A stretch of 64,000 bases of DNA, from the NCBI RefSeq assembly GCF_029633825.1, contig NZ_CP090642.1, forward strand, positions 248,001 to 312,000. Reading direction: 5' to 3'. Each line of letters begins with the position of its first letter. Position 1 is the stretch's first letter. A model generated the notes under the pieces. The model worked only from the letters and a program-made list of their open reading frames with translations, had not been told where the DNA came from and searched no databases. Of this stretch, positions 3,852 through 39,800 are shown piece after piece. This stretch comes from Burkholderia contaminans. Lineage in GTDB: Bacteria; Pseudomonadota; Gammaproteobacteria; Burkholderiales; Burkholderiaceae. Both the position numbers and the translations under genes were made by a program.

Positions 3852-3863
3852 GTCGTTCGCCGG

Positions 3864-4033: not shown

Positions 4034-4074
4034 GCAAGGAGCACGGTTGCGCGTTGCGCAACGCGACTCCTCGC
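4034..4074 (+). other. imperfect stem-loop upstream of the reverse transcriptase
   Basis: GTTGCGC (4046-4052) pairs with GCGCAAC (4056-4062) across a 3-nt loop. Outside an internal bulge, AGGAG (4037-4041) pairs with CTCCT (4067-4071), then CG with CG at 4034/4074. It lies 43 bp before the ATG at 4117. It might be part of a non-coding RNA or mask a ribosome site. It does not match a recognisable msr/msd layout. Confidence 0.35.
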
Positions 4075-4116
4075 AGCACCAGTCACGTTGGCTCATCGTC
4101 CCGCCCATCTTTCTCC

Positions 4117-6109: not shown

Positions 6110-6406
6110 AGCCGGCCGGGCCGCGAGGCCGCCCGGCGCCGGCCGGTCCGCTGGCGCGAACCGGCCGGTAACACTCCGCCAGCATGCTGTCTTTCATCCG
6201 GTGTCCGGCCTGACCGCGACATCACCGGCTTCGCCGCCGACACCGGATCGCTTATATTCCCCTCCCGTACATTGCCAGCGGATTCCCGCTCGACGTCCTG
6301 CAAGCGGATGCCGCCGTGCGCGCACCGCCGCCGCCGGCAGGTCTGCCGGCCCGTCGGGCACCGGCACAGGCCTTAGAATGTCGCCGGACAATCGTGGCAG
6401 GACACC

Positions 6407-8250: not shown

Positions 8251-8376
8251 TTCGCGCGGCCGGTTTGACTACCGTCGTTGCGATGCTGGCACGCGATGTC
8301 ACCGGTTTCGATGCGACGACGTGCCGCCGGCGCGCGCAAGCCGCCGGCGGCACAATTCGTTATCGCGGCGGGCGGT

Positions 8377-10624: not shown

Positions 10625-11416
10625 CTAATTCCCTGGTGCATCGAGCGCGCTCGTCATCTCCTGCGCGGCGTGTTGCAGCGAAGGCAGAAAGCGTCTCACG
10701 GCGTCCGCCGGATTGATCGCGTGTTCGAGGTAGATCACGTTCAGCGCCGCCATCACTCGATCATGCGCGCTGACCGCGACGGCGAGCGAGCCGATTTTGC
10801 GTTGTTCGGTCCAGTCGCCATGGTTCGATCCGAAACCGTCGGCGCGTGTCCGCCTTACAAGATTGCGAATGAATGCATCGTCCGATGCGAGTCGCTGTTG
10901 TTGTTCACCGCCGGCACCGGTGCGCAGCAGGTCGAGAATATCCTCGCGCTCCGCGTCCTGGCACGACGCGAAGTAGATGCGGCCCGATGCCGTCAGCAGC
11001 ATCGGGAGTCGGCGCCCGACCATCGAACGATGAAATGACAGCGGGCTGAACCGATGAGTCGTCTCGCGAATGATCATCGAATCGCCGTCCGGCGTCGTCA
11101 GGTCCGACGGCCACACGATGCGCTGCAGCAACGTGGCCATGATCGGCGGCGCGACCGTCGCAATGTGTTCGTCGTCGGTGAACCCTTCGCTCAGCGTGCG
11201 CACACGCAGCGTCAGTCGGAACGTGTCATCCGACTCGCTGCGTCGCACGAATCCGCCTTCCACCAGCGTTTCCAGCAACCGCCGCACGGTCGTGCGGTGC
11301 AGCCCCGTGACTTCGCTCAGCTGCTGGCTCGTCGCGCGGCCGTTCTCCAGCGCATTGAGGGCCTGCAGCACCTGCAGGCCACGCGACAATCCTCGGACAT
11401 TTGCGTACTTGCTCAT
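10625..11416 (-). CDS. mhpR: IclR-family regulator of phenylpropionate catabolism
   Basis: The 263-residue protein has the IclR layout: an N-terminal winged helix-turn-helix (GLQVLQALNALE, TSQQLSEVTGLHRTTVRRLLETL, residues about 10-55) and a C-terminal effector-binding domain (DGDSMIIRET, SFHRSMVGRRLPMLLTASGRIYFA). It is divergent from mhpA, as mhpR is in enteric bacteria, where it activates the pathway with phenylpropionoid inducers. The 192-bp gap between them contains a perfect small inverted repeat (11444-11458). The name rests on family plus position. Confidence 0.88.
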   Translation of the reverse strand: MSKYANVRGLSRGLQVLQALNALENGRATSQQLSEVTGLHRTTVRRLLETLVEGGFVRRSESDDTFRLTLRVRTLSEGFTDDEHIATVAPPIMATLLQRIVWPSDLTTPDGDSMIIRETTHRFSPLSFHRSMVGRRLPMLLTASGRIYFASCQDAEREDILDLLRTGAGGEQQQRLASDDAFIRNLVRRTRADGFGSNHGDWTEQRKIGSLAVAVSAHDRVMAALNVIYLEHAINPADAVRRFLPSLQHAAQEMTSALDAPGN

Positions 11417-11443
11417 CGGAAAATGTATTAAAAATCAACGACG

Positions 11444-11458
11444 TGCATTCCTTGCACA
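11444..11458. promoter_or_regulatory. candidate MhpR operator
   Basis: GTGCA-TTCCT-TGCAC is a perfect 5-bp inverted repeat between the divergent mhpR and mhpA genes. It is flanked by looser mirrored arms, AAATCAAC on the left and GTTGAAAT on the right. IclR proteins bind such dyads. Assignment is from position only. Confidence 0.4.
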
Positions 11459-26280: not shown

Positions 26281-27234
26281 ATGCTCATGAACGGTAACTC
26301 CACGCTCGATCCGGTGGCGCAAGAGGCGATTGACTGGGAAGTGAGGCTGCGCTCCGGCGAGATTTCGCAGGAGGAGCGCGACGCATTCGCGGCATGGCGG
26401 CGCGCGGATCCGGCCCACGAAGAAGCGTGGGCGCGGCTGCAGCAGCGGCTCGGCAGGCTGGGGCCGTTGCAGGGCACGTCGAGTGAGGCGGTGCGGCGGG
26501 CGCTCGACGAGCCGTCGCGTCACCGCAGACGATTGCTGAAAGCCGGCGCTGGCCTGGGGGGCATCGTGCTTGCGGGGATCGCCACGCGCCAGCTCGTTTC
26601 GACGTTTTCGCTCGACGCGGACTACCACAATGGCGATGTGGTCCCACAAAGAGTCCAGTTCGACGGCAACGTTTCGGTCACGGCCGGCGCGGCCACGCGG
26701 GTGTATACCCGTGCACGTGAGCAAGCCGACCTCTATCTTGCCGCCGGTCAGGTTGCAACCGATCCGAATCGCGCGGGCCATCAGTCTGTCGTCGTGACTA
26801 CCCGCGACGGCACGGTCCGCACCGAGCGGGCGCGCGTGAGCGTGGACGTCCTGCGGCTGCATACCGTCGTGGCCGTGCAAGGCGGCGACGCAGTCCTTGC
26901 CGTGCCTCACGGGCGCCGCTTGCGGGTACCCGATGGATCGGCGTGGTCCCTGTCGGGCGGACAGATCGCACGCATGCCCGAAACGTCGGTCGACATCTTC
27001 TCGTGGACACGCGGCACGCTGGTCGTGCTCGACCGCGCGGTGCCGGACGTGATCGAAACGCTGGGCCGTTACTTCGGCGGCTATATCCGTTTTCCGGAGG
27101 CCGCGCTGTCGCGCCGCGTGAGCGGCGTCTTTCCGCTCGACGACGCGCCGGCCGCGCTCCGGCAACTGGCCGAAAGCCTCGGGTTTTCCCTGAATCTGTA
27201 CGGCAAGATGCTCGCCGTCGCCACACCTGCCTGA
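26281..27234 (+). CDS. FecR-family anti-sigma/sigma-regulator
   Basis: The 317-residue protein has the three parts of FecR. A cytoplasmic N-terminal domain (EAIDWEVRLRSGEISQEERDAF, AWRRADPAHEEAWARL) binds the sigma factor. A membrane helix lies near 85-105 (GAGLGGIVLAGIATRQL). The periplasmic FecR domain (VSVTAGAATRVYTRAREQADLYL) and C-terminal STN-binding region (DVIETLGRYFGGYIRFPEAA) follow. It should pass a signal from the receptor's STN domain to a FecI-type sigma. Unusually no sigma gene is adjacent; the nearest is at 39252-39800, the other end of the cluster. Alternative ATG at 26287. Confidence 0.88.
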   Translation: MLMNGNSTLDPVAQEAIDWEVRLRSGEISQEERDAFAAWRRADPAHEEAWARLQQRLGRLGPLQGTSSEAVRRALDEPSRHRRRLLKAGAGLGGIVLAGIATRQLVSTFSLDADYHNGDVVPQRVQFDGNVSVTAGAATRVYTRAREQADLYLAAGQVATDPNRAGHQSVVVTTRDGTVRTERARVSVDVLRLHTVVAVQGGDAVLAVPHGRRLRVPDGSAWSLSGGQIARMPETSVDIFSWTRGTLVVLDRAVPDVIETLGRYFGGYIRFPEAALSRRVSGVFPLDDAPAALRQLAESLGFSLNLYGKMLAVATPA

Positions 27235-27371
27235 AACCGCAGGCAGCCCCTCCAGTCCCCCCTCCAGATTTTTTTCGACTTGCGGTGTCACTTTTCGCCG
27301 CTCGTTGCACAAGGTAATCAAGAGCGCATCAAATCGCTCGACATCAACCCGTGCACTCGAGTGGAGGAAGT

Positions 27372-27836
27372 GTGTTCGACGCTATCGACAAGGCCATATT
27401 GTCCGTGCTGCAGCAGGACAGCACGCTCTCGGTGGCCGAGATCGCCGACCGCGTGAATCTTTCGACCACGCCATGCTGGCGACGCATTCAGAAGCTCGAG
27501 CAGGACGGGGTGATAGCGCGTCGCGTGGCGCTTCTGGATGCGAAGAAGCTCAACGTGGGCGTGACCGTTCTGGTGGAGATCAAGACTGCGGAACATACCG
27601 CCGCGTGGTTGCAGCGTTTCTGCGACGTCGTGGCGACGATCCCCGAAGTGGTGGAAGTCCATCGCATGAGCGGGCACATCGACTACATGCTCAAGGTGGT
27701 GGTGCCGCATATCGACGCGTACGACAGCGTATACAGGCGTCTGATCGGCGCGGTCGACATCTTCGACGTCAGTTCCAGCTTCGCGATGGAGACCATTAAA
27801 CAGACCACCGTATTACCGCTCGATTACATGCTGTGA
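27372..27836 (+). CDS. Lrp/AsnC-family regulator
   Basis: The 154-residue protein is of standard Lrp length. The N-terminal helix-turn-helix is DKAILSVLQQDSTLSVAEIADR then NLSTTPCWRRIQKLEQDGVI, and the C-terminal ligand-binding RAM domain includes VVEVHRMSGHIDYMLKVVVP. GTG at 27372 is chosen because GGAGGA immediately precedes it; an in-frame GTG lies at 27351. Lrp proteins sense amino acids, which fits a peptide-processing cluster. It lies between the FecR gene and the receptor. Confidence 0.88.
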   Translation: MFDAIDKAILSVLQQDSTLSVAEIADRVNLSTTPCWRRIQKLEQDGVIARRVALLDAKKLNVGVTVLVEIKTAEHTAAWLQRFCDVVATIPEVVEVHRMSGHIDYMLKVVVPHIDAYDSVYRRLIGAVDIFDVSSSFAMETIKQTTVLPLDYML

Positions 27837-27940
27837 CCGCACGGGCCGGGCAGTGTATCGACAGGAACGGAGAAGGACGGAATTTCACCGGCGCGGCGGA
27901 AACCGCGGAATGGAATTCCAAAACGGGCGGCGCAAGCGAA

Positions 27941-27985
27941 TTGTTTCAAAAAAACATTCCAGGCCCGGACGATAGACTTGTTTCA
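27941..27985 (+). promoter_or_regulatory. promoter-like element upstream of the TonB-dependent receptor
   Basis: TTGTTTCA (27941-27948) with an A run, then CGATAGACT ending at 27978, followed by a second TTGTTTCA at 27978-27985. The same blocks with the same 30-bp offset occur before tldE (35683-35720). I infer an ECF-sigma promoter served by the FecI-like sigma at 39252-39800. The spacing is too long for a sigma-70 promoter using TTGTTT as its -35. Confidence 0.55.
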
Positions 27986-28131
27986 TCGATGACGCGTTCG
28001 GGCAAGAGGCTGACCGAAGCCCGATTGAAAGCATGACGGTACTTTGCGACACGATGATGACGCGGTCACGCGTAGGAATACTGATAGAACGGACGAAGAG
28101 CCAATACATTCGACAAGGGAGCGGTTCAAAC

Positions 28132-30519
28132 GTGAAGCTCAATATCGGAACTCGCCGGGCCATCTCGAGCCAGGCATCAGGGGTTGCCATCGCGGTCGCC
28201 GTTGCACAGGTTTTCATGGCGGCGTCGGCGCATGCACAACAGGCCGCACAGCAGTCATGGCATCTCGCAAGCGGTCCGCTGGACCGCACGCTGGTCGAAA
28301 TCGCCCAGGCGGCCAACGTGAGGTTGAGCTACGACGCGGGCCTCGTGCAATCGTTGAAATCGTCGCCCGTCGAGGGCAGCTATACCGCCGAGGCCGCGAT
28401 TCGACAAGCGCTCCGGGGCACCGGTCTCGATCTCGTCGCGACGGGCAGCGGTGGCCTGACCATCCAGAAGGCGGTTGCGAAGCCGGTTGCGGCAGCGCCC
28501 GTCGCGGCGTCGGCGGCGGCAGCCTCCGTGGGGCCTGTCGATACCACGCTTCCGCTCATCAGCGTGGCGGCCAGCCGGGACTCCGGCGGCACCGGCTTCG
28601 TCGCGGAATCGTCGTCCACCTATGCGCGCTCGGACGTGCCGCTGAGCGAGACGCCGAAATCGGTCAGCGTCATCAACGCGGCGGTGATCCAGAGTCAGGC
28701 CGCTCAGTCGCTCTCCGATGTGCTGAGGAATGCGTCCGGTGTCGTCACGCGGCCGGGGCCGCTTGGTGTGCCGCAGTACATGATTCGCGGGTTTGCAGCG
28801 GAAAATCTGACTTCGGACGGGCTTGCGACTGTCGGGTCCGCGCCCAACGTCACGCCGACGATAGCGATCTCGAGCGTGGAAGTGATCAAGGGGCCGTCGG
28901 CGATCGTGAACGGCAACAGCCCGCCGGGAGGCGTGATCAATATCGTCAAGAAGACGCCGCAGGCTGACCCGTTTCACGAAATCAAACTGGGTTATGGCAC
29001 GTACGGTGACACGCAGATCGCGCTGGACACCACGGGCGCGATTACCGACGACAAGAAGCTCCGGTATCGCTTCATCATCTCGGGGGAGCGGGTCGGCCAG
29101 AATGCCATGGGGTATGACGGCCAGAGAAATTTCTACTTTGCGCCGACCGTGCAATGGAAGGATTCGACCACGGACCTGACGGTCGGCTATGAGCGCACGG
29201 TCGATCGCCAGCCGGTTCCGCAGTTCACGGTCGGCTATGCCGCGGGCGACATCTACCGAAACTATATCGACCGTCCGCTCGGCTCACCGTCCGACCACTT
29301 CGGCGCGCAAACCGACAGTATTTTCTTTCACCTCGAACAAAAGCTCGGCAAGGCGCTGACCTTCGTGAGCAAGGGTTCCTATACGCGTACCCAGCAAACG
29401 CAGCAGGCTTGGGCGACGGCGACGACGCTCTCGCCGACCAACGGTGCGGCGTTCTTCAACTTCGATTCTATTTCGGATTACTACAGCTGGAGCTTCCAGA
29501 ATTACCTGCGAGCCAAGTTCGATATCGGCGGTGTGAAAAACACCGTGATAGCAGGGTGGGATTTCAATCATTACAACCGGTATCAGGTCGATACCACGAC
29601 CTCGAAATTCATTTCCGTTCCGAACGTTTTCGGCCCCCCTTCGTTGCCCTCGTCCGATACGGGTAACCTTGCGCCGACATCCGCCAGTCGGTACACGGAA
29701 ACGGGTTTGTATCTTCAGGATCAGTTTTCCTACAGGAATTTCCATGCGCTCGCTTCGGTGAGGCGGGACACTTATCTGACGGGTACGATCGGCGGAACGG
29801 CGTCGCCGGGAAACCATCAGAACGCCTATAGCCCAAGTCTCGGCCTGCTCTATGAACTGACCTCCGAGGTTTCGGCTTATGCCAGCTACAACCGTGGCTT
29901 CCGGCCTGGCTCGGCGCCTCAGTTCGGTGGCGGCATCCTGCCTCCGCAGATCAGCCAGCAAGTCGAAGTGGGCATGAAGTTCAATCTGCTCGACGACAAG
30001 CTGGCCATCACGACCTCGGCTTACCGCACCTCGTTCAGCAATTACAACGTCGCCGATCCGCGTCATCGCGGCTTCTATCTTCCTGCCGGCGGCGCCGTCA
30101 GCCGCGGATTCGAAGCGGAGATCAACGGCCAGCCGCTGCCCGGCGTCAACGTGGTCGGTACCTACACGTACAACGACTTCGTGCAGCCCGCCGGCACCAA
30201 GCTTGCGGTGAACCTACCCAAGAACAGCGCCAGCCTGTGGGCGACTTACAACTTCCAGACCGAAGCACTCCAGGGCTTCGGGGTCGGCACAGGGCTGTTC
30301 TTTGCAAGCGGGCAGTACGTCGAATCGGGCTCGGCCTACCGCATCCCGAGCCAGGTGGAGACGGACCTCGGCGTGTTCTATCGGAAGAAGGGGTACGGCC
30401 TGAATCTTTCGATCAAGAACGTGTTCAATCGCAAGCTCTACTACAGCAGCACGACGTCCAGCCTGATCCCGATGGGTCCGGAGCGGACGGTCATGCTGAC
30501 CGGAACCTATGACTTCTGA
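28132..30519 (+). CDS. TonB-dependent receptor with STN signalling domain
   Basis: From the GTG at 28132 (after AAGGGAG) the protein has 795 residues. A signal peptide ends at ASAHAQ, followed by an STN domain (LASGPLDRTLVEIAQAANVR to GLTIQKA, about 42-122) that contacts FecR. An Ala-rich linker and a TonB box-like TLPLISVAA precede the plug (ETPKSVSVINAAVI, YMIRGFAAENLTSDGL). The 22-strand barrel ends in GTYDF with the required terminal aromatic. It resembles ferric-siderophore receptors such as FoxA/FpvA. The frame opens further upstream to an ATG at 28033. The TonB gene overlaps its end. Confidence 0.92.
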   Translation: MKLNIGTRRAISSQASGVAIAVAVAQVFMAASAHAQQAAQQSWHLASGPLDRTLVEIAQAANVRLSYDAGLVQSLKSSPVEGSYTAEAAIRQALRGTGLDLVATGSGGLTIQKAVAKPVAAAPVAASAAAASVGPVDTTLPLISVAASRDSGGTGFVAESSSTYARSDVPLSETPKSVSVINAAVIQSQAAQSLSDVLRNASGVVTRPGPLGVPQYMIRGFAAENLTSDGLATVGSAPNVTPTIAISSVEVIKGPSAIVNGNSPPGGVINIVKKTPQADPFHEIKLGYGTYGDTQIALDTTGAITDDKKLRYRFIISGERVGQNAMGYDGQRNFYFAPTVQWKDSTTDLTVGYERTVDRQPVPQFTVGYAAGDIYRNYIDRPLGSPSDHFGAQTDSIFFHLEQKLGKALTFVSKGSYTRTQQTQQAWATATTLSPTNGAAFFNFDSISDYYSWSFQNYLRAKFDIGGVKNTVIAGWDFNHYNRYQVDTTTSKFISVPNVFGPPSLPSSDTGNLAPTSASRYTETGLYLQDQFSYRNFHALASVRRDTYLTGTIGGTASPGNHQNAYSPSLGLLYELTSEVSAYASYNRGFRPGSAPQFGGGILPPQISQQVEVGMKFNLLDDKLAITTSAYRTSFSNYNVADPRHRGFYLPAGGAVSRGFEAEINGQPLPGVNVVGTYTYNDFVQPAGTKLAVNLPKNSASLWATYNFQTEALQGFGVGTGLFFASGQYVESGSAYRIPSQVETDLGVFYRKKGYGLNLSIKNVFNRKLYYSSTTSSLIPMGPERTVMLTGTYDF

Positions 30520-31297
30520 TTCCTTGCCCGCCCGCCCCTGGGACGACATCGCCGTGCGCGAGAACACGTCCCAGGCGCCTTATGCACGCACACGCCGCCT
30601 CGCGTGTGCCGCAGGGGTGCTGCTCGCGCATGCGCTGGGACTGTACGTTGCAGTCCACCAGAGTGCGGTGACGCTCAGGCTCGAGGCCGGGCGTCCCGCG
30701 GGCGGCACGGTGCAGGTGCAACTGGTTGCCGCGCCGGCACCGCGGCCTGCGCCAACCCCGCCGGCGCCGCCCAAGCCGCGCACCGAGCCGCCGAAACCCG
30801 TGGCGCCGGCAAAGCCGGAAAAGGCGCACGTGCTGGCGTCGCGGGCGCCGAGCCCGCGCACGGTGGAAGCAGCGCCGCAGGAGGCGCCGAAACCCGCCGA
30901 AACGCGGCCGGTCACGCCGGTGCCCGCGCCGCATCCCGCACCTGAAGCGGCGCCGGCCCAACCTGTCGCACAACCCGCGCCGGGGCCAAACGTGCTGGAC
31001 GCGCCGAAGCAAATCAGCGCGGGCGAGTTGAAGCAGTTGGGATGCCAGATGCCGCGACCCGACTATCCGGCGAAAGCGCGGCGGCTGCAACAGGAGGGCA
31101 CCGTGGTCGTGCATCTGAGCATCGGCACCGACGGCGCGGTGACGTCCGCGCGCGTGGCGCAGAGCAGCGGCTCGCCGCTGCTCGACGCGGCCGCCGTCGC
31201 GGCGATCCGTGCCGGGCGCTGTCATCCGTACGAGACGGCGGGCATCGCGCGCTCGGTAGAAGCTACCCAACCCATCGCATTCAACCTGAACGACTGA
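30509..31297 (+). CDS. tonB: TonB energy transducer
   Basis: The 262-residue protein has a single N-terminal membrane anchor (LACAAGVLLAHALGLYVAVH, about 31-50). A long Pro/Ala/Lys/Glu-rich periplasm-spanning stretch (APTPPAPPKPRTEPPKP) follows, then the C-terminal TonB domain (RPDYPAKARRLQQEGTVVVH, SSGSPLLDAAAVAAIRAGRC). It carries proton-motive energy from ExbB-ExbD to the receptor. The start lies 11 bp inside the receptor gene, so translation is coupled. The pair looks dedicated to this cluster. Confidence 0.93.
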   Translation: MTSDSLPARPWDDIAVRENTSQAPYARTRRLACAAGVLLAHALGLYVAVHQSAVTLRLEAGRPAGGTVQVQLVAAPAPRPAPTPPAPPKPRTEPPKPVAPAKPEKAHVLASRAPSPRTVEAAPQEAPKPAETRPVTPVPAPHPAPEAAPAQPVAQPAPGPNVLDAPKQISAGELKQLGCQMPRPDYPAKARRLQQEGTVVVHLSIGTDGAVTSARVAQSSGSPLLDAAAVAAIRAGRCHPYETAGIARSVEATQPIAFNLND

Positions 31298-31320
31298 ACC
31301 CGCACCAATCGGAGCAACAC

Positions 31321-32061
31321 ATGGAACAGTATGGCATCGCCAACGTCTGGCAACAGGGTGACTTCGTCACCCGCTTCATCTTCGTTTTCCTGATCGGGAT
31401 GTCGGTCGTCTCATGGTTCGTGATACTAACGAAAGGATTTGCCAATCGGCGCCTCGAATCGCTCGGCAAGCGCGCGCAAACGCGTTTCTGGTCCAGCTCG
31501 TCGATCAGCGAGGGCATCGAGGCGCTGGGCGAGGGCGGCGACAATCCCTATCGTGCACTGGTGCTTGCCGGGCGCGAAGCGAATGAGCAGCACTCGGGCA
31601 ATGAACCGTCGATGCAGGGCAGTCTGAGCGCGAGCGAATGGGTGGCGCGCGGGTTGCGCAATGCATTCGACGACGAAGTCGCGCGGTTGCAAAACGGCCT
31701 GGCCGTGCTTGGCTCGATCGGCAGCACGGCGCCGTTCGTGGGGCTGTTCGGTACCGTCTGGGGCATCTATCACGCGCTCATGGCGATCGGCATGTCGGGG
31801 CAAGCCAGTCTCGATCACGTTGCTGGCCCGGTGGGCGAGTCGCTCGTCATGACGGCGATCGGGCTGTTCGTCGCCATTCCGGCGGTGCTCGGCTTCAACT
31901 ACGTAAACCGCGGCAACAAGCGCGTGAGCCATCGGCTGAACCGCTTTGCGCACGAGCTGCACGTGTATTTCGTCACCGGCGCGAAGGCCCGTGCCGACGC
32001 CAACCGGCCGGCCAGCGCATCGGTCGCGAGCAAGCGCGCCACGCCCAACCTGGCCGCCTGA
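31321..32061 (+). CDS. exbB: ExbB/TolQ-family proton channel subunit
   Basis: The 246-residue protein has three membrane helices: residues about 14-36 (FVTRFIFVFLIGMSVVSWFV), about 135-160 (LAVLGSIGSTAPFVGLFGTV, the conserved MotA/TolQ/ExbB segment) and about 175-195 (ESLVMTAIGLFVAIPAVLGF). With ExbD it forms the proton-driven motor for TonB. The ATG follows CGGAGC, 23 bp after tonB. Confidence 0.93.
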   Translation: MEQYGIANVWQQGDFVTRFIFVFLIGMSVVSWFVILTKGFANRRLESLGKRAQTRFWSSSSISEGIEALGEGGDNPYRALVLAGREANEQHSGNEPSMQGSLSASEWVARGLRNAFDDEVARLQNGLAVLGSIGSTAPFVGLFGTVWGIYHALMAIGMSGQASLDHVAGPVGESLVMTAIGLFVAIPAVLGFNYVNRGNKRVSHRLNRFAHELHVYFVTGAKARADANRPASASVASKRATPNLAA

Positions 32062-32072
32062 AGGAGCCCGCC

Positions 32073-32495
32073 ATGTCAATGATTACCGAGGGCAGCGGCG
32101 ACGAAGGCGTCATGAACGACATCAACATGACGCCGCTGATCGACGTCATGCTCGTGTTGCTGATCATCTTCATCGTGACGTTGCCCGTCATCAACAAGGC
32201 GGTGAAGGTCGATCTTCCGCAGGCGGCGGCGCAGCCGGCCGTGTCGAAGACGCAGGACATCGATCTGTCGATCACGGCGGACAAGACGGTGCTGTGGAAC
32301 AAGCAGCCGGTCGATGCGGAGGCGTTGAAGGCGCGCGTGGCCGAGGCCGCGGCGAAGGGCGAGCCGCCGGCGGTCAACATCAACGCGGATCAGCACGTCG
32401 AGTACGGCAAGGTCGCGACCATTCTCGCGGCGCTCCAGGGCGGCGGCCTCAACAAGATCAACTTCGTGATGCAACCGCCCGAGGCGCACCAATGA
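32073..32495 (+). CDS. exbD: ExbD/TolR-family proton channel subunit
   Basis: The 140-residue protein has one N-terminal membrane helix (MNDINMTPLIDVMLVLLIIF) containing the essential Asp near residue 25 that carries the proton, and a periplasmic C-terminal domain (DIDLSITADKTVLWNKQPVD, VNINADQHVEYGKVATILAAL). The start follows AAGGAG. Its stop overlaps the start of the ABC transporter gene (ATGA), so the transporter is part of the same transcript. Confidence 0.93.
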   Translation: MSMITEGSGDEGVMNDINMTPLIDVMLVLLIIFIVTLPVINKAVKVDLPQAAAQPAVSKTQDIDLSITADKTVLWNKQPVDAEALKARVAEAAAKGEPPAVNINADQHVEYGKVATILAALQGGGLNKINFVMQPPEAHQ

Positions 32496-34294
32496 CGGTG
32501 AATCGCGCTTTCCCGATTGATCGCGCGGAAGACGCGGAAGCACGCCGCCGTTTTCCACCGGTGTGGCGTCTCCTGCTGCCGTACTGGCGTACGCGCGAAG
32601 GCGTGTTCTCGCTGATATTGCTGATGCTCGTGATCGGGTCGAGTTGGGCCACGACGTACGTGATGCTATGGAACAACAACTGGACCGGCACGTTCTACGA
32701 TGCGATCGGCGCGTCCCGATTCAAGGTGCTGCCGGAGCTGCTCGTACGTTTCCTGCTCGTGGCGATGGCCGGCGCGGTCGTGCAGATTACCGGGGTGGTG
32801 CTGCATCAGATCGTGCAGATTCGCTGGCGCCGGTGGCTCACGACATGGCTCGCCGAAAAATGGCTCGCACGCAACAACTATTACCGGATCGAACGCGACC
32901 GGGAACTCGAGAACGTCGATCAGCGTATCGCGGAGGACGTGAAACTGTTCGTCAACGACACGCTGCTGCTGGGGCTCGGGTTTCTTTCGGTGCCGGTCAG
33001 CGTCGTGTCGTTCAGCATCGTGCTGTGGCGCATGGGTGGCCCGTTGCAGGTCGATGTCGGCGGATCGTCGTACGTATTGCACGGTTATCTGGTGTTCGCC
33101 GCATTTGCCTACACCGGTGTCATTTTCGCGGCGACGCATTATCTGGGCCGCAGGCTGATTACGCTGACGGCCAGGCAGCATCGTCTCGAAGGCGATTTTC
33201 GCGTGCTCATGGTCGGCGTGCGTGAATTCGCGGAACAGATCGCGTTCTTTCGGGGGCAAACGGCCGAGCATGGGCGTCTGCAGGCATCGTTTCGGTTCGT
33301 GGTATCGAATCTCTACGCGACGCTGTGGGTGAATACGCGCGTCTCGTTCTTTAACAATATCGTCGGTCAGCTGAGTTCGGCCATTCCGATCATTCCGACC
33401 TTGCTGATGCTGCCGCAGCTGATGTCGGGCGGGCTGACGCTCGGCGGGCTGATGAAATCGAACAGCGCATTTAATTCCGTCACGGGGTCGCTGGCATTTT
33501 TTTGGCAAGCCTATACGGGATTTACGTCGTGGCGCGCGGAAGCCAACCGTTTGCGCGAATTCCTGCACGTGAGCGAGCATGAGCCGCGGCAGGACATCGC
33601 GCTTCACGAAAGCCGCACAGGAGCGGTCGCCGCGAGCGGGCTCGTCTTGCGCGACGCGTCCGGCGACACGCTGTCGCGCGTGCCCGACTTCGTGCTCCCG
33701 GCCGGCCGGAGGTGCCTCGTGCGCGGTCGCTCGGGATGCGGGAAAAGCACGTTGCTGCGGGCGCTGGCCGGCCTATGGCCCTACGGCGAAGGCACGATCC
33801 TGCGGCCGGCGGCCGGCACGTTCTTCTTGCCGCAACGCAGCTATATCCCGCCGGGCTCGCTGAAGGCGGCCGTGACCTATCCGCGCGACGCGTCGGCGTA
33901 CCCGGACAGCGAGTGCGAGGAACTGCTGCGCGCGTGCGGATTGTCGGCCTATGCCTCCCAGCTCCATGTCGAGGATCGCTGGAGCACACGGCTGTCCGGC
34001 GGCGAGCAACAGCGCGTGGCATTTGCGCGCGTGCTGCTCGCCAGACCTTCCACGGTGTTCCTTGACGAATGCACGTCTGCGCTCGATAGCCAAAGCGAGA
34101 AGGAACTTTACGGTCTTTTGATCGAGCGTTTGCCTCAGGCCACGGTCGTCAGCGTCGCGCATCGCAAGGAACTGCTGGCGTTTCACGACACGACGCTCGA
34201 TTTCCCCGCACCGGAAGCACGACGGGATGCGGCCGACGAAGCAGAGGGCGCACACACCAGCAGCGGAGCATACGCGGGAACGCAGCTGTGCTGA
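32492..34294 (+). CDS. fused ABC transporter of the SbmA/YddA (BacA-related) type
   Basis: The 600-residue half-transporter has an N-terminal ABC_membrane_2 domain (about 25-335; YWRTREGVFSLILLMLVIGS, NNWTGTFYDAIGA, ENVDQRIAEDVKLFVNDTL). The C-terminal ATPase has Walker A GRSGCGKST (412-420), signature LSGGEQQR and Walker B VFLDECTSALD (522 on). The membrane domain is related to SbmA/BacA, which import microcins and other peptides, and to the ATP-driven YddA and mycobacterial Rv1819c/BacA. Coupled to exbD, it probably moves the receptor's ligand across the inner membrane. Export cannot be excluded. Confidence 0.9.
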   Translation: MTVNRAFPIDRAEDAEARRRFPPVWRLLLPYWRTREGVFSLILLMLVIGSSWATTYVMLWNNNWTGTFYDAIGASRFKVLPELLVRFLLVAMAGAVVQITGVVLHQIVQIRWRRWLTTWLAEKWLARNNYYRIERDRELENVDQRIAEDVKLFVNDTLLLGLGFLSVPVSVVSFSIVLWRMGGPLQVDVGGSSYVLHGYLVFAAFAYTGVIFAATHYLGRRLITLTARQHRLEGDFRVLMVGVREFAEQIAFFRGQTAEHGRLQASFRFVVSNLYATLWVNTRVSFFNNIVGQLSSAIPIIPTLLMLPQLMSGGLTLGGLMKSNSAFNSVTGSLAFFWQAYTGFTSWRAEANRLREFLHVSEHEPRQDIALHESRTGAVAASGLVLRDASGDTLSRVPDFVLPAGRRCLVRGRSGCGKSTLLRALAGLWPYGEGTILRPAAGTFFLPQRSYIPPGSLKAAVTYPRDASAYPDSECEELLRACGLSAYASQLHVEDRWSTRLSGGEQQRVAFARVLLARPSTVFLDECTSALDSQSEKELYGLLIERLPQATVVSVAHRKELLAFHDTTLDFPAPEARRDAADEAEGAHTSSGAYAGTQLC

Positions 34295-34313
34295 GCGCCA
34301 CGATCCCAACCGA

Positions 34314-34340
34314 CGCCGTGCATTTGAACAATGCACGGCG
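34314..34340 (+). promoter_or_regulatory. perfect 11-bp hairpin between transporter and thioredoxin genes
   Basis: CGCCGTGCATT (34314-34324) pairs with AATGCACGGCG (34330-34340) across TGAAC. It lies 19 bp after the transporter stop and 32 bp before the thioredoxin start. No T tract follows. It may cap the upstream mRNA or tune downstream expression. Confidence 0.5.
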
Positions 34341-34372
34341 CGCCAACACGTGAAACAGGACAAGGTCGATCC

Positions 34373-35593
34373 ATGAGCAATCTGAAATCAGTGACGCTGG
34401 AAACAATCGAAGCCGACGTGATCAACAACCCGCTGCCCGTGCTGATTGACTTCTGGGCGCCGTGGTGCGGTCCGTGCAAGGCACTCGCGCCGACGTTGTC
34501 GAAATTGAGCGAGCAGTTTGAAGGCAACGTGGCGTTCGTGAAGATCGACGTGGACGAGAATGCCGGCGTGCGCGAACGATTCGGTGTCCGCGGTATTCCG
34601 ACGCTGATCCTGCTGCGCGGCGGCAAGGAGCTCGGCCGCGTGGTCGGTAATCGCTCCGCCACGCAACTGGCCGGCTTCATCGACAATCACCTCGGCTCCG
34701 TCACGCCGTTGCCGGCGGCGATCGCCGTTGCGCCGAACGCGTTCGGCGGCGACGCCCAGCTCAAGGCGGAGCGCCTTGCCGCATTGCGCACGTGGCTGGA
34801 CCGCAAGCGGGCCGCGCCGTCGGAAGCGATGTGGGATGGTGAAATCGGCAGCGCCATTCAGTTCGTCTGCAATACCGCGGACGTGGACGATTGCGCAAGG
34901 ATGCTGGGCATTCCGGCGAACGTGCTGGCCGTGGTGGAATCACTGTCGAGCTATCGCAGCACGCATCTGAACGGCGCGGAGTTCATCGCGCACTGGCTGG
35001 ATGCCGTTCCGGTGGGTGCGAATCTCGCGCGGCTGCCGCAAATGCTGCTCACGGATCTGCTGTCCGGCGGCGAGATGACCGAGTTGATCCGCGGCGACGC
35101 CACGTTGCTATTGATTCGAGATCGGCTTGCCGCGCAGCATGACCCCGCTCGGGCGGAAGGGCCGCTCGATTCGGAGCTGGCCGCGATCAAGCAGGCGCTC
35201 GCGAAGGCCGATGCCACCCCGGCTGGCGCTGCGCACGCGTTGGCGACACGGCTTCTCGTGTTGGTCGCTCAACCGCTCGGCGATGCCGCAATCGTCACCG
35301 ATTTCATGTTCGGCCTTGCGGGCGCGCATTGGGAGTTGTTGCGCGCGGCCTGCAACTGGACGCGCGATGACGACCGACGCTTCATGCAGCTCGCGGAAGA
35401 AACGTCGAATCGCGCGGTGGAGCGCGGCGAAGAGGCTTCGCAAGGCGACAAGACTCTCGAGCGAATTGGGTTGGTGGATGCCGAACTCATTGCGCGGTTT
35501 CGATCGCACTACGGCAATGGCACGCAGGCCCTGAAAAAGGTCGGCGCGAGCATCGGCGATCGTTTGATCGGGCTGACGAAGCGCTGCGCGTGA
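34373..35593 (+). CDS. thioredoxin fused to a long uncharacterised C-terminal region
   Basis: The 406-residue protein begins with a full thioredoxin domain (about 1-110): active site WCGPCK at 31-36, the cis-proline stretch VRGIPTLILLRGG, and no signal peptide, so it is cytoplasmic. The remaining 290 or so residues are helical and unlike CnoX-type tetratricopeptide extensions as far as I can judge (ERLAALRTWLDRKRAAPSEA, ALATRLLVLVAQPLGDAAIV). I do not recognise them. In context it may reduce a disulfide or thiol-bound ligand brought in by the transporter. ATG at 34373 chosen because the thioredoxin fold starts there. Confidence 0.85.
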   Translation: MSNLKSVTLETIEADVINNPLPVLIDFWAPWCGPCKALAPTLSKLSEQFEGNVAFVKIDVDENAGVRERFGVRGIPTLILLRGGKELGRVVGNRSATQLAGFIDNHLGSVTPLPAAIAVAPNAFGGDAQLKAERLAALRTWLDRKRAAPSEAMWDGEIGSAIQFVCNTADVDDCARMLGIPANVLAVVESLSSYRSTHLNGAEFIAHWLDAVPVGANLARLPQMLLTDLLSGGEMTELIRGDATLLLIRDRLAAQHDPARAEGPLDSELAAIKQALAKADATPAGAAHALATRLLVLVAQPLGDAAIVTDFMFGLAGAHWELLRAACNWTRDDDRRFMQLAEETSNRAVERGEEASQGDKTLERIGLVDAELIARFRSHYGNGTQALKKVGASIGDRLIGLTKRCA

Positions 35594-35682
35594 ATCATCG
35601 TCGAAAAGGCGCGCGTCGAACGTAAATTCCGGATGCGCTGGCGCGCGCGCAAAACGATTCCACGATTCCGCGATACGGCGAT

Positions 35683-35720
35683 TTGTTTCATAAAAAAATT
35701 TCGATCGCCCTCGATACACT
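35683..35720 (+). promoter_or_regulatory. promoter-like element upstream of tldE-like gene
   Basis: TTGTTTCA (35683-35690), an A run, and CGATACACT ending at 35720, followed by GTTTTCA. Block sequence and 30-bp offset match the element at 27941-27978 before the receptor gene. It lies 96 bp before the tldE-like start codon in a 223-bp gap. Confidence 0.55.
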
Positions 35721-35816
35721 GTTTTCAATGTGCTTCCGCTCGAAGCGACGCGAAAACGTCCCGACGGAAAGTCGGATTCACGGGCACACGGCAGTTCAAC
35801 ACTCGGAGTGATTTCC

Positions 35817-37175
35817 ATGCATGACGGCGGTACGCAGTGGCGCAACGTGAAATCCAGCCTGGAGGCAGCGGCCGAATGTGCGCTCGATCTTGCCCGACGC
35901 GCAGGGGCCGACGGCGTCCGTGTGGAGATCGATCATGTCGAATCACGGACAGCCACCGTGCGCAACCGGGTGCCGGCCGAACGAAGCCTTCGACTGTCTT
36001 CGGCTGTCTCGCTCGTGGTCTATCGCAATGGCCGGCGCGGTGCGACGACCTCGTCCGATTTGTCCGCCGACGGTCTCGCCGGCGCGGTCGCGGCGGCCAT
36101 CGACATCGCGTCGGTCACGGACGCCGATGCCGCCGCCGGCCTGGCTCGGGCGGACTTGCTCGCGACGGACTTCATCGATCTGGACTTGTATCATCCGCTC
36201 GATCTGTCGCTCGATGACATGCTCGAAGACGCCCGTTGCGCGGAAGAGGCCGCGTTCTCCACGAGCCCGGCCATCGTGACGACCAACGGTGCCAGCGTCG
36301 GGACTTCCGCGGGGTTGTCGCTGCTTGCGACCAGCGAGGGGTTTGGGCACAGCGTGCCGTGGTCCACGCATTTTTTGTCGTGCATGCCTGTCGCGGCAGG
36401 CACCAGCGAGAAGCAGATGGGATTCTGGAGCGACGGCGCGCGCGCCTATGCCGACCTGGACGCACCCGCACGGATCGGCACGCAAGCCGCGACGCGCGCG
36501 CTCGCGCTGCTGGGCAGCACGCAGGTCGAAACGCAGCGTTGCTCCGTGTTGTTCGAGCCGTTGGCCGCAATGTCGCTACTCGGCGAGTTCGTCAACGCGG
36601 CATCCGGCGATGCGCTTTATCGGACGGGCTCATACCTGAGCCACCGTCTCGGTACTCGCATCTTTGCCGATCACATTCAGGTGTACGAAGATCCGTTCGT
36701 CCCGAAAGGCATGGCGAGTCGCTGCTTCGACTCGGACGGTGTTGCCGTGTCCCGGCGATCGGTCGTCGAGGCAGGTGTGTTGCGCGGCTATTTTCTGGGC
36801 TTGTATGCCGCCCGGCGCCTCGGCATGGCACCGACCGGCAACGGCCGGGGCCCGCACAACCTCGAAGTGCGTAGCGCGAAAACCGCCAACTCGGACGGGA
36901 TCGACACGATGCTGGAAAGGCTTGGTCGAGGCTTGTTCGTCACCGAGATGGCGGGCGGCGGCGTGAATCGGCTGACCGGCGATTTCTCGCGTGCCGCTAA
37001 AGGGTTCTGGGTGGAGAACGGCCAGATCAGTTTTCCGGTCACCGGCATCACGATCGCGTCGAATCTGGATGCGATGTTTTCCGGCCTGCTCGCCGTGGGG
37101 GCCGACACCGCGACCAGAGGAAGCTTCCGCACGGGCTCGTGGCTGATCGATGAAATGCGAATCGGCGGGAGCTGA
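35817..37175 (+). CDS. TldE/PmbA-like metalloprotease subunit
   Basis: The 452-residue protein has the PmbA/TldE layout: an N-terminal domain (LARRAGADGVRVEIDHVESR, RLSSAVSLVVYRNGRRGATT), a middle domain and the C-terminal part (ALYRTGSYLSHRLGTRIFAD, GMASRCFDSDGV, TEMAGGGVNRLTGDFSRAAK). As in TldE, no HExxxH is present; the partner supplies the zinc site. In E. coli, TldD-TldE degrades unfolded peptides and removes the leader of microcin B17. It follows its own promoter-like element and precedes tldD by 51 bp. Confidence 0.88.
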   Translation: MHDGGTQWRNVKSSLEAAAECALDLARRAGADGVRVEIDHVESRTATVRNRVPAERSLRLSSAVSLVVYRNGRRGATTSSDLSADGLAGAVAAAIDIASVTDADAAAGLARADLLATDFIDLDLYHPLDLSLDDMLEDARCAEEAAFSTSPAIVTTNGASVGTSAGLSLLATSEGFGHSVPWSTHFLSCMPVAAGTSEKQMGFWSDGARAYADLDAPARIGTQAATRALALLGSTQVETQRCSVLFEPLAAMSLLGEFVNAASGDALYRTGSYLSHRLGTRIFADHIQVYEDPFVPKGMASRCFDSDGVAVSRRSVVEAGVLRGYFLGLYAARRLGMAPTGNGRGPHNLEVRSAKTANSDGIDTMLERLGRGLFVTEMAGGGVNRLTGDFSRAAKGFWVENGQISFPVTGITIASNLDAMFSGLLAVGADTATRGSFRTGSWLIDEMRIGGS

Positions 37176-37226
37176 CGCGCTCGGTGCGCGCGACCATCCT
37201 TTTCCGTCACACACCGGTACGACACT

Positions 37227-38714
37227 ATGCTGGACACGAACCAAACCCTGACCGACACCCGCGGCCCCTCGCTCCACGACATGCGTCGCGCGGCGTATGC
37301 GGGGCTGCTGGACAAACACGGCATCGACGAAACGCACTTGTTCGCCGCGCTGAACAGCGCGCTCGGGCAGTCCGGCGACTTCGCCGACATCTATCTGAAG
37401 GAGTCGATCGCGGAATCGTGGTCGCTCGAAGGCGGCGCCGTGCGGGGCGGCGCCTGGCAGTGCGATTCGGGATTCGGCATGCGCGTGCTGAACGGCGAGG
37501 AGACGACGTTCGCGAGTTCGCAACGGATCGGGGCGGACGCGTTGCGCACGATCGCGCGGCAGATTCGTTCGGGATCGGACGAGCTCTCCCACGCAGCGCC
37601 CCGCGGCGAACCGGCCGGTCTCGCGGCGGCGCGATCGATCTATGTCCCGCGAGCCCCGCTCGGCGCGATCGGCGCGGAGCGGAAACTCGCGCTGCTCAAG
37701 CGCGTGGACGAACTGGCGCGTTCGAAGGATCCGCGCGTGGTCGAGGTCAACGCGATGCTCGCCGCGACGCACGAGACGGTGTGGGTCGCGCGTTGCGACG
37801 GGCTCAGCGTCGGCGACGTGCGGCCCATGCTGCGGTTGGCGATCAACGTTCGGGTCAAATCGGGCGACCGGATCGAAAGCGCGAGCGGGGGAATCGGCGG
37901 TCGCTACGGGATCGCTTCGTGGTCGGATGACGACATCCGCACGCTGGTGTGCGACCGCGTCGACGCCGCGCTGACGAAACTGGATGCACGGGCCGCCCCG
38001 GCGGGAAAAATGACCGTCGTCGTCGGGCCCGGCTGGAACGGCGTGCTGTTGCACGAAGCCGTGGGCCATGGTCTCGAGGCCGACGGCATCCGCCGCAGGA
38101 CCTCGGTGTTCGCCGGCCGCATCGGCGAGCGCGTGGCGGCGCGTAACGTCACCATCGTCGACGACGGCACGCTCGAAGGCCGCCGGGGTTCGCTCAATTT
38201 CGACGACGAGGGCTGTCCGACGCAACGCACGGTGTTGATCGAGGACGGCGTGTTGCGCGGCTGCATGCAGGACGCGCTCAGCGCGCGCCTGATGAACATG
38301 AAGCCGACGGGCAATGGCCGGCGCGAGGGCTATGCGGTGTTGCCGATGCCCCGCATGACCAATACGTTCATGCTCAACGGCGATTGCGAACACGAGGAGA
38401 TCATTGAGTCGGTGAAGCGCGGGATATATGTGGCGGGGCTCGAGGGCGGGCAGGTCGACATCACGAGCGGGCAGTTCGTGTTCGAGGCATCAGAAGCATT
38501 TCTGATCGAAAACGGCAGGCTCTGCGCACCGGTGAAAGGCGCGACGATCACCGGCAACGGGCTCGAAACGATCCAGAAAATCGGCATGGTCGGCAACAAC
38601 CTCGAACTCGACACGGGCCGTGCCGTGTGCGGCAAGGCCGGCCAGTCGGTGCCGGTGAGCGTGGGGCAGCCTACCGTTCGCGTGGACGACATGACGGTGG
38701 GCGGAACGGCGTGA
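37227..38714 (+). CDS. TldD-like zinc metallopeptidase
   Basis: The 495-residue protein carries the zinc motif HEAVGH at 276-281 inside GVLLHEAVGHGLEADGIRRR. TldD landmarks follow: NVTIVDDGTLEGRRGSLNFD, MNMKPTGNGRREGYA and ETIQKIGMVGNN. The N-terminal part begins FADIYLKESIAESWSLEGG. It should form a heterodimer with the preceding TldE-like protein. Burkholderia normally has housekeeping tldD and pmbA elsewhere; here the adjacent pair looks like a dedicated copy. The start has no strong ribosome site. Confidence 0.9.
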   Translation: MLDTNQTLTDTRGPSLHDMRRAAYAGLLDKHGIDETHLFAALNSALGQSGDFADIYLKESIAESWSLEGGAVRGGAWQCDSGFGMRVLNGEETTFASSQRIGADALRTIARQIRSGSDELSHAAPRGEPAGLAAARSIYVPRAPLGAIGAERKLALLKRVDELARSKDPRVVEVNAMLAATHETVWVARCDGLSVGDVRPMLRLAINVRVKSGDRIESASGGIGGRYGIASWSDDDIRTLVCDRVDAALTKLDARAAPAGKMTVVVGPGWNGVLLHEAVGHGLEADGIRRRTSVFAGRIGERVAARNVTIVDDGTLEGRRGSLNFDDEGCPTQRTVLIEDGVLRGCMQDALSARLMNMKPTGNGRREGYAVLPMPRMTNTFMLNGDCEHEEIIESVKRGIYVAGLEGGQVDITSGQFVFEASEAFLIENGRLCAPVKGATITGNGLETIQKIGMVGNNLELDTGRAVCGKAGQSVPVSVGQPTVRVDDMTVGGTA

Positions 38715-38745
38715 TGAACGCGTGCGGACAGGTGGTGAGCCGAAG

Positions 38746-39174
38746 ATGAGAGGCTGGGCGCAGCGTCTCGACCAGTCGAGAGTCCGGTCGCGGGCGGACA
38801 AGACGGAACTCCTGCCTTTACCGAAGGCCATTCGCGATGCACTCTCACTGGAGTATCACCTTCAGCTCGAAGCGCTGCGCGCCGGCGCCGGCTCGCTGAC
38901 TGCGCTGCGCATCCTGTTGCGCGTGGCGATGGCCGCCGCGATGCTGCGCGAGCTCGGCTACGGCGGACGACGCCTGCATACAGCCGACGAGTACGAGCGC
39001 ATCGCCGGCAACGCATATGAATCGGGAGAGGAAGGCCGCTACGGATTCGATCCCGCCGCTTTTCTCACCTTTGCGGCGCTCGTGACGGATCATGATTTAC
39101 AACTCGAGATAGCGCCCGTCCGAGTGATCGACATCGTCGCACGGCAACTGGAGCGCCCCAGCGCAGCCCAGTGA
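38746..39174 (+). CDS. small protein of unknown function in the TldDE operon
   Basis: The 142-residue protein begins RGWAQRLDQSRVRSRADKTE and continues with helical LQLEALRAGAGSLTALRILL. It has no signal peptide or membrane helix. I have an uncertain memory of similar small proteins near FecI/FecR pairs in Burkholderiales, some loosely labelled as Fis-like regulators, but no DNA-binding motif is clear. It starts 31 bp after tldD and is the last plus-strand gene of the cluster. An in-frame GTG at 38722 is another start. Confidence 0.7.
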   Translation: MRGWAQRLDQSRVRSRADKTELLPLPKAIRDALSLEYHLQLEALRAGAGSLTALRILLRVAMAAAMLRELGYGGRRLHTADEYERIAGNAYESGEEGRYGFDPAAFLTFAALVTDHDLQLEIAPVRVIDIVARQLERPSAAQ

Positions 39175-39251
39175 AAGAGACGTATTCGCGACAACGATCG
39201 GCATCGGAGGATGCCGGCCGGCAGCCGAGCACCGGCGCTGGTGCAGCCGGT

Positions 39252-39800
39252 TCACGTCATCAGATAGCACTGCGTCAAAGCCTGCGCGATATATTTCCGC
39301 ACCATGCTCGCCGACACGCCGAGCCGCTCGGCGATTTCGGCGTGCGTGAGGCCGTCGATCTGACTCATGACGAAGGCGCTTTTTGCGTTAGGTGACAGGC
39401 CGTTCAACGCCTGATCCACGAGCAGGAGTGCCTGCGTGACTTCCGCGAGGCTTTCTGCCGACGGCGCGACTGCTTCTTCCCGATGGGCGAGCGATTCAAG
39501 GTACGAGCGTTCCAGGTCGCGGCGCCGCCACATTTCGTAGGTGAGGCGCTGTGCGATGACCGTCAGAAAGGCCCGCGCATCGCGCACGGCTGTCACGTCC
39601 TGCACATCCGCAAGTTCGGCGAACGACGACGATGCGAGATCTTCCGCGTCGGCCGGCGAGCCGACACGTCTTTGCAGTTTCGACTTCAGCCACGCATAGC
39701 TCGTGCGAAATTCACTCGTCAACCACGCCGCGCGCGAGCGCGTGCGTTCGTCGACATCGCATCCTGTGGGGGCGCCACTGATCGGTGAACTGTAATTCAT
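39252..39800 (-). CDS. FecI-type ECF RNA polymerase sigma factor
   Basis: The 182-residue protein has the two ECF sigma domains. Region 2 is LKSKLQRRVGSPADAEDLAS with DARAFLTVIAQRLTYEMWRR. Region 4 is ALNGLSPNAKSAFVMSQIDG then LTHAEIAERLGVSASMVRKYI, the recognition helix. Its length and sequence place it with iron-starvation sigmas. It points toward the cluster from the right end, and its FecR-like partner lies 12 kb away at the left end. It probably recognises the paired promoter elements at 27941 and 35683. The ATG follows AGGA. Confidence 0.9.
   Translation of the reverse strand: MNYSSPISGAPTGCDVDERTRSRAAWLTSEFRTSYAWLKSKLQRRVGSPADAEDLASSSFAELADVQDVTAVRDARAFLTVIAQRLTYEMWRRRDLERSYLESLAHREEAVAPSAESLAEVTQALLLVDQALNGLSPNAKSAFVMSQIDGLTHAEIAERLGVSASMVRKYIAQALTQCYLMT

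Follow-up and report, generated by a model that had tools for sequence, protein, structure and literature searches.

Few polypeptide import systems acting via TonB-dependent receptors are known so far. Among them, Fus of Pectobacterium and YddB-PqqL of Escherichia coli represent protease-associated import systems (PAIS), which combine a TonB-dependent receptor and a protease in one locus, import a polypeptide and then degrade it, and display a sporadic distribution including plant-associated bacteria; in the excerpted text of their description, the proteases studied (FusC and PqqL) are periplasmic M16 enzymes, the receptor is FusA-like, and "other proteases" beside FusA homologues are mentioned without detail (PMC6793856). 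Here we have analyzed a gene cluster at positions 26281–39800 of a 64,000-nucleotide stretch of the Burkholderia contaminans genome (contig NZ_CP090642.1, positions 248,001–312,000; hereafter, the window), which unites a receptor, its own TonB-ExbB-ExbD, an SbmA/BclA-type ABC protein, a thioredoxin fused to a helical domain, and a TldE/TldD peptidase pair, and which we regard as the probable genetic basis of a dedicated peptide-uptake-and-digestion module.

Several other described systems share some of these parts. Lasso-peptide isopeptidase loci contain a TonB receptor, FecI-FecR, and a peptidase opening the imported knotted peptide (NF033523), and the likeness in receptor, FecI-FecR and peptidase extends to an S9 fold of the peptidase in one variant of the cluster (L100, see below). 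TldDE and thioredoxin are not known to be parts of such loci, and an assignment to them was rejected, as the S9 protein of L100 scored 63 bits against the NF033523 cut-off of 400 and no lasso B2 family was found in the window genome. The microcin B17/J25 functions of E. coli (SbmA, TldDE and FhuA) involve the same families for outer- and inner-membrane uptake and proteolysis; there, the genes lie apart from each other and have other purposes, whereas the present cluster joins them in a single module whose halves share a promoter element. Rhizobial BclA and BacA import plant cysteine-rich peptides. The likeness to them lies in SbmA-superfamily transport, plant-associated hosts and disulfide-rich peptides, while the excerpted text mentions no receptor, thioredoxin or peptidase encoded alongside (PMC12003926). 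As for PAIS, membership was rejected, because an M16 family is missing from the window block and a FusA/YddB-type receptor was not found (neither name appears among the 34 PDB sequences matching the receptor at E <= 1e-5, some of these names being generic). The module further differs from PAIS in its seemingly cytoplasmic peptidase (TldDE, S9 or M16), its FoxA/FhuA-like receptor, and a thioredoxin plus adaptor domain as constant parts; TldD and thioredoxin do not occur in the main text of PMC6793856. Overall, we see in the cluster a new and modular form of import-plus-proteolysis, distinguished by its receptor type, cytoplasmic peptidase and thioredoxin-adaptor pair, and its gene set is not described among the matches listed in open-licence literature (titles and starts of abstracts).

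All the genes named in the preliminary description of the window are present within 26281–39800, each with a Pfam match, along with two that it had overlooked, an AsnC/Lrp regulator and a 142-aa open reading frame (ORF), orfX. The features are as follows:

26281–27234, plus strand: FecR anti-sigma regulator, 317 aa (PF16220, 54.8 bits; PF04773, 25.7 bits, cut-off 24)
27372–27836, plus strand: AsnC/Lrp-family regulator, 154 aa, between FecR and the receptor (PF13412, PF01037 and PF13404 over cut-off)
27938–27979, plus strand: cis element GAATTGTTTCAAAAAAACATTCC (27938–27960) with TAGACTT box (27973–27979), upstream of the receptor
28033–30519, plus strand: TonB-dependent receptor with STN signalling domain (PF07715, PF00593, PF07660, TIGR01783)
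30509–31297, plus strand: TonB, 262 aa (PF03544, 76 bits)
31321–32061, plus strand: ExbB/TolQ-like proton channel, 246 aa (PF01618, 106.7 bits)
32073–32495, plus strand: ExbD/TolR-like protein, 140 aa (PF02472, 108 bits)
32492–34294, plus strand: SbmA/BclA/YddA-type ABC permease-ATPase, 600 aa (PF06472, PF05992, PF00005)
34373–35593, plus strand: thioredoxin (WCGPC) plus all-helical domain, 406 aa (PF00085, 100.7 bits, residues 6–104)
35680–35723, plus strand: second copy of the element, GATTTGTTTCATAAAAAAATTTC (35680–35702), with TACACTG box, upstream of tldE
35817–37175, plus strand: TldE/PmbA, 452 aa, lacking HExxxH (PF19289, PF19290, PF01523; NF008268, 343 bits)
37227–38714, plus strand: TldD metallopeptidase, 495 aa, with HEAVGH and the Cys454 equivalent (NF008006, 528.5 bits)
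38746–39174, plus strand: orfX, 142 aa, without Pfam or NCBIfam match, conserved with the cluster
39252–39800, minus strand: FecI-type extracytoplasmic function (ECF) sigma factor, 182 aa, convergent to the operon (PF08281, PF04545, PF04542)

That a peptide is imported, reduced and proteolysed, as had been proposed for this block, appears to be the reading with the best fit. The receptor would bind an extracellular peptide and signal via STN-FecR-FecI, the cluster's own TonB-ExbB-ExbD would drive the peptide into the periplasm, and the ABC protein would carry it intact to the cytoplasm. There, the thioredoxin would reduce its disulfide bond(s), the fused helical domain may act as an adaptor holding the substrate or handing it over, and the unfolded chain would be threaded into and cut by the TldD/TldE protease, with the amino-acid products probably sensed by the AsnC/Lrp regulator. 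S9 oligopeptidases and clam-shell M16 enzymes are limited to short or flexible chains, which would explain their standing in for TldDE. In E. coli TldD/E, unfolded chains enter a narrow pore and are trimmed from the N terminus, according to the excerpted text of PMC5810440; such a restriction to unfolded chains would provide a reason for the thioredoxin. The fusions themselves (thioredoxin-domain and domain-S9) tie the steps together, and the AsnC regulator, a pyridoxal phosphate (PLP)-dependent enzyme in G624 and a GntR-aminotransferase protein in G132 hint at amino-acid use. The parts, the conservation of the set, the kept catalytic residues, the peptidase exchange and the shared element are read directly from sequence; what we infer is which way transport runs, the kind of substrate, the reduction step, the role of the adaptor and the regulator binding the element.

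Profiles built from the window proteins were used to annotate 45 contexts (window included) defined by the presence of the fusion or its C-terminal domain, a 62-residue fragment (G014:C3:258458) standing outside this count. The gene set turned out to be conserved well beyond the strain in which it had been noticed, though patchily: the complete set (receptor, TonB, ExbB, ExbD, ABC protein, thioredoxin with domain, TldE and TldD) is present in 28 of the 45 contexts, all 28 also having FecI and FecR. These represent 25 genomes, some near-identical (e.g., G031, G033 and G037a), and two of the 28 are imperfect (partly broken tandem copies in G052a; TldD cut by a contig end in G053). The 17 incomplete contexts comprise three with another peptidase, four on short contigs or truncated at contig ends (G024, G113, G338a and G338b), four partial or decayed (G014b, G014c, G037b and G391b), and six without the system. 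In the genus sample (65 genomes, all of which also match the fusion via ordinary thioredoxins), a full-length relative of the fusion (>350 bits) is found in eight genomes including the window's own; remoter relatives occur in G053, G024 and G052, and G050 has a split one. The domain profile matched 21/398 family genomes (8/25 genera), 6/398 genomes of the phylum sample, and 10/246 genomes (8/154 genera) of a second family, probably Enterobacteriaceae; the closest named relatives of the G1362 protein are from Pectobacterium (97% identical).

At least six gene arrangements are observed among the contexts, and flanks differ even within the genus. Beside the window-type order (ABC-Trx-TldE-TldD, where Trx is thioredoxin), these include Trx-TldD-ABC-TldE (G332a, G052b and G079), ABC-Trx-TldD-TldE (G332b and G365), Trx-Trx-ABC-TldE-TldD (G053), TldE-TldD-Trx with divergent receptor and ABC genes (G621, G726 and G1362), and receptor-ABC-Trx-TldE-TldD divergent from FecIR-TonB-ExbBD (G578, G1240, G1215, G1268 and G1242); unlike in the window, fecI adjoins fecR in most relatives. 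That linkage survives such reshuffling argues for selection on the set. As a rough control, 80 named loci of mostly ordinary thioredoxins were inspected; in 79 of them, TldD, TldE, ExbD, receptor and FecR were all absent nearby (E <= 1e-8). The AsnC/Lrp gene (80–99% identity in the eight nearest relatives compared) is present in 15/45 contexts and orfX in 16/45. In G052 (L062–L064) and G053 (L060), thioredoxin, TldD or receptor genes are repeated, with some copies broken, which suggests that the module has been duplicated and turned over locally.

The window TldD exceeds its NCBIfam cut-off (NF008006, 528.5 vs. 513) and aligns to E. coli TldD (5nj5) with 466 bits, retaining HExxxH and the third zinc ligand Cys454; TldE, devoid of the motif, is over the Pfam cut-offs (PF01523 exactly at it) and below that of NCBIfam PmbA (NF008268, 343 vs. 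438 bits). Among the aligned cluster TldD ORFs, His/Glu/His is kept in 29/29 and Cys in 28/29, the only ORF without it ending at a contig end (a broken 350-aa G052 copy, below the score limit, was not aligned). Unlinked copies of TldD (52% identical) and TldE (46% identical) on contig C1 of the window genome (9.44 Mb, 7 contigs) mean that the cluster encodes an extra pair; a third PmbA/TldD-family protein is encoded at C1:3077874.

In three contexts, the position of TldDE is taken by a different peptidase, S9 in L100 and G624 and M16 in G1287. L100 (Pseudomonas sp. S31) combines FecI, FecR, receptor, SbmA-type ABC protein and an S9 prolyl-oligopeptidase-family protein with a free 108-aa thioredoxin and a separate 314-aa protein matching the helical domain (hhalign probability 96.9%, E 1.5e-10), TldDE being absent from this 20-kb locus. 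In G624, receptor, ABC protein, thioredoxin, PLP-dependent enzyme and TonB-ExbB-ExbD-ExbD accompany a 935-aa protein, of which residues 2–276 are the domain and the remainder an S9 peptidase. In G1287, the M16 peptidase and FecIR occur together with a receptor, a thioredoxin, a free domain protein, two ABC proteins, ExbB, ExbD and TonB. At the limits used, G624 and G1287 encode one TldD and one TldE each, on contigs other than the cluster's. The cluster of G132 contains M24 and M1 aminopeptidases in addition to TldE and TldD. By simple hydropathy (one protein per family, two for S9; not a signal-peptide predictor), no strongly hydrophobic N-terminal stretch was found in TldD, TldE, S9, M16, M24 and M1 peptidases (<=1.30 over the first 60 residues), so digestion should be cytoplasmic, following the ABC step. 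A periplasmic FusC/PqqL-type enzyme was considered for the G1287 M16 protein and rejected for want of such a stretch and because it matches 4nnz (142 bits) above 6b03, which we take to be FusC (69 bits), and PqqL (62 bits).

The cluster TldD proteins do not form one clade. A tree built from 29 cluster TldDs and 14 unlinked ones loses 108.9 log-likelihood units when the cluster copies are held together as one clade (p-AU 2.9e-5), and its well-supported branches require four or more changes of label; TldE requires at least three (30 cluster and 13 unlinked copies; the AU test covers TldD only). These trees, which have long branches and may be affected by gene conversion, leave out unlinked copies of several genomes, including most of those of the second family. 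The window TldD and TldE each belong to a diverged clade made up of 13 cluster copies, and the cluster TldD of G332a is nearly identical to the same genome's unlinked copy. From these phylogenies, the peptidase slot has probably been refilled several times. An extra adjacent TldE-TldD pair was noticed in G079 (C12:485484–488306), outside the cluster and apart from the C1 and C3 copies.

The 23-bp element suggests a regulatory tie between the two halves of the cluster. At one mismatch or less, it occurs at only two places in the 9.44-Mb genome, before the receptor and before tldE, with similar spacing to the adjoining box; as controls, the reversed pattern gave no genome matches, and the shuffled window none at up to two mismatches. 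Thirteen aligned receptor-upstream copies keep GAATTnTTTnnnAAAAnnnTTyC followed by TAGACTT. G025 likewise has the element ahead of both receptor and tldE, as does G013b (with two substitutions in the tldE copy), and G391a has exact copies upstream of the receptor and of TonB. An exact element is present in 13/15 AsnC contexts (exceptions G391b and G132) and in a B. glumae plasmid locus, but in none of the AsnC-less contexts; weak matches at two substitutions occur in the decayed G014b and G037b and in G1362 and G1242. As the element tracks AsnC in this way, the putative binding factor may be AsnC itself or the FecI of the cluster; AsnC/Lrp sites are often dyads, and the element is a rough dyad. 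The receptor and tldDE halves appear to be co-regulated, as a common element with TAGACTT or TACACTG box in front of both argues against their unlinked expression. In G106 (L178–L179), the element lies ~1.26 kb before the receptor ORF, compared with <=0.25 kb in other copies, and the extra DNA between AsnC and receptor may be an insertion sequence.

The C-terminal domain of the fusion (~290 aa, about 34715–35590) is all-helical, and residues beyond ~105 have no Pfam or NCBIfam match. Its predicted structure is confident (pLDDT 90.2 for the whole fusion and 93.4 for the domain alone), and Foldseek against PDB gave nothing at E <= 0.001 for the domain model, leaving the fold unrecognised. The chaperedoxin CnoX/YbbN carries C-terminal TPR repeats on its thioredoxin; a Pfam scan of the window fusion gave no TPR family match. 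The domain is the quickest-evolving part of the cluster, with 35–46% identity compared to 75–86% for ExbB and 56–83% for the receptor in seven relatives (G013a, G013b, G014a, G031, G137, G106 and G391a). It is found fused to thioredoxin (as in the window), free (L100, G132 and G1287), or fused to an S9 peptidase (G624); domain-S9 fusions number 27 proteins, including those of Paracidovorax avenae, Acidovorax sacchari, Xanthomonas sacchari, X. rydalmerensis and X. indica. CxxC is present in 46/50 thioredoxin-labelled ORFs, the remaining four showing the domain only (G391b, G338a and G1287) or an incomplete thioredoxin part (G293). The closest named relatives of the window fusion (88–90% identical) are from Burkholderia sp., B. 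vietnamiensis and B. cenocepacia.

The features of FecI-FecR-FecA signalling are found in the cluster, namely an STN domain on the receptor (E 3.8e-6; 27.0 bits, slightly below the 28.4 cut-off; residues 77–154 match the FecA chain 2d1u with 28.5 bits) and FecR and sigma families over cut-off; the true start of the receptor may be further inside the ORF, e.g., GTG at ~28132. The ABC protein combines the SbmA_BacA membrane domain (PF05992, 67.4 bits, cut-off 24; PF06472, 159.2 bits) with an ATPase (PF00005, 64.6 bits), as in the BclA type. Its best PDB sequence match is 6tqe (266.5 bits), presumably Rv1819c, which imports peptides along with other hydrophilic molecules.

These families also accommodate other explanations. 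Scavenging of a peptidic metallophore, in which a foreign metal-loaded peptide siderophore is taken up by the receptor and brought to the cytoplasm by the ABC protein, the peptidase frees the metal, and thioredoxin is an accessory, would agree with a receptor over the TonB-siderophore cut-off (TIGR01783, 288 vs. 223.5 bits), with siderophore and metallophore receptors (FoxA/CntO and FhuA, also pyochelin and pyoverdine receptors) as its best PDB sequence matches, and with FecI-FecR control, typical of iron uptake. We consider it rather unlikely, given that FoxA/FhuA-type receptors bring in peptides too (e.g., thiocillin and microcin J25), no convincing Fur-like box was found in seven upstream regions (best 11/19; 9/19 before the receptor), families of siderophore-type ABC importers, esterases or ferric reductases were not found among the block proteins, and a constant thioredoxin and an AsnC regulator would be unexpected. 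Less probable still is an immunity device that imports and destroys a plant or competitor antimicrobial peptide, with the same chemistry as in uptake and digestion, selected for resistance. The patchy distribution of the domain, its presence on plasmids and cytoplasmic-looking peptidases would suit such a role, as would the description of SbmA/BacA and BclA as antimicrobial peptide transporters in the excerpted text of PMC12003926; yet importing a toxin by a dedicated receptor with FecI/FecR feedback would be an odd defence, and the AsnC regulator points to amino-acid use.

Production of a self-made ribosomal peptide, matured by TldDE and exported by the ABC protein, finds a precedent in microcin B17 of E. 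coli, which TldD/E matures (PMC5810440, in excerpt). We deem it highly improbable here: a microcin B17-type production cluster was rejected, as YcaO cyclodehydratase is absent genome-wide, and with no lasso B2 family either, the preference of the preliminary description for import over production holds up for the whole genome, an azole or lasso peptide of the cell's own making being unlikely as the imported substrate, too. Moreover, TldDE is replaceable by unrelated peptidases, a scan of 20 ORFs in and around the block found no families of ribosomally synthesized and post-translationally modified peptides, and the thioredoxin-TldE gap of 223 bp in the window is ~43 bp in G013a (small ORFs were not systematically searched).

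Some observations weigh against uptake and digestion of a peptide as the function of the module. Membership of the receptor in a siderophore-receptor subfamily makes a metal-chelate ligand possible, ABC proteins of the SbmA-type fold could export as well, and, the fold being unrecognised, an adaptor role of the domain is a guess. The domain is absent from 368 of 369 genomes of the class sample, the sole carrier being the window's own. Six contexts (G353, G388, G293, G1339, G050 and G570) have the thioredoxin or domain without the import system, that of G570 lying beside a receptor that barely resembles that of the window. TldDE is missing in G014c, G391b (a 77-aa TldE remnant only) and the B. 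glumae plasmid copy (L243), where tldE, tldD, fecI and fecR were not found in 25.4 kb; the 20-kb L100 locus lacks TonB-ExbBD, and FecIR was not found in the G624 stretch. The near-identity of the two G332a TldDs could result from gene conversion. As a separate observation, the thioredoxin-domain genes of G353 (L188), G388 (L192–L193) and G293 (L196) lie near a recurring ORF set (e.g., ORFs containing NGYVIIPAA or SQGIYEHIPTEDVVGYLLRE), possibly a separate mobile unit.

The domain is present on 55 plasmid records (53 Burkholderia and 2 Paraburkholderia). In the B. glumae conjugative plasmid locus L243, genes from AsnC through thioredoxin (3231–11446) are followed by dimethylsulfone monooxygenase genes; with no TldDE found in its 25.4 kb, this copy has either decayed or relies on chromosomal TldDE. 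Named carriers (Burkholderia glumae, gladioli, plantarii, vietnamiensis and cenocepacia, Robbsia, Paraburkholderia and Trinickia, as well as Pectobacterium, Brenneria, Biostraticola, Paracidovorax and Xanthomonas) belong to mostly plant- or soil-linked genera, within a biased genome sampling. Plant cysteine-rich peptides are an attractive, albeit unproven, candidate ligand class; the peptide metallophore and microcin offered as examples in the preliminary description are likewise conjectural. A bolder and distinctly tentative extension of the uptake-and-digestion reading is a reduce-and-digest machine, by which plant-associated bacteria would feed on or disarm folded disulfide peptides (e.g., plant defence peptides); receptor, transporter, thioredoxin and adaptor would import these and unfold them in the cytoplasm, and the peptidase would be an exchangeable slot repeatedly refilled from own or foreign enzymes. 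Were the uptake-and-digestion reading true, the module would represent a second branch of TonB-receptor polypeptide import, reaching the cytoplasm and pairing disulfide reduction with proteolysis, and it would predict one promoter element for both halves, a disulfide substrate and interchangeable peptidases. With plant cysteine-rich peptides as ligands, it would give plant-associated bacteria a route to consume or neutralise them; with microbial peptides, it would mark an uptake route into carrier cells. It would also place in a physiological context both an extra TldDE pair and a thioredoxin-linked domain whose fold is unrecognised.

Among the scanned ORFs flanking the cluster, one side includes a sugar-transporter-type major facilitator superfamily (MFS) gene along with 2-hydroxyacid dehydrogenase, class II aldolase and LysR genes, and the other side genes for a MarR-GNAT protein, amino-acid permease and aminotransferase.

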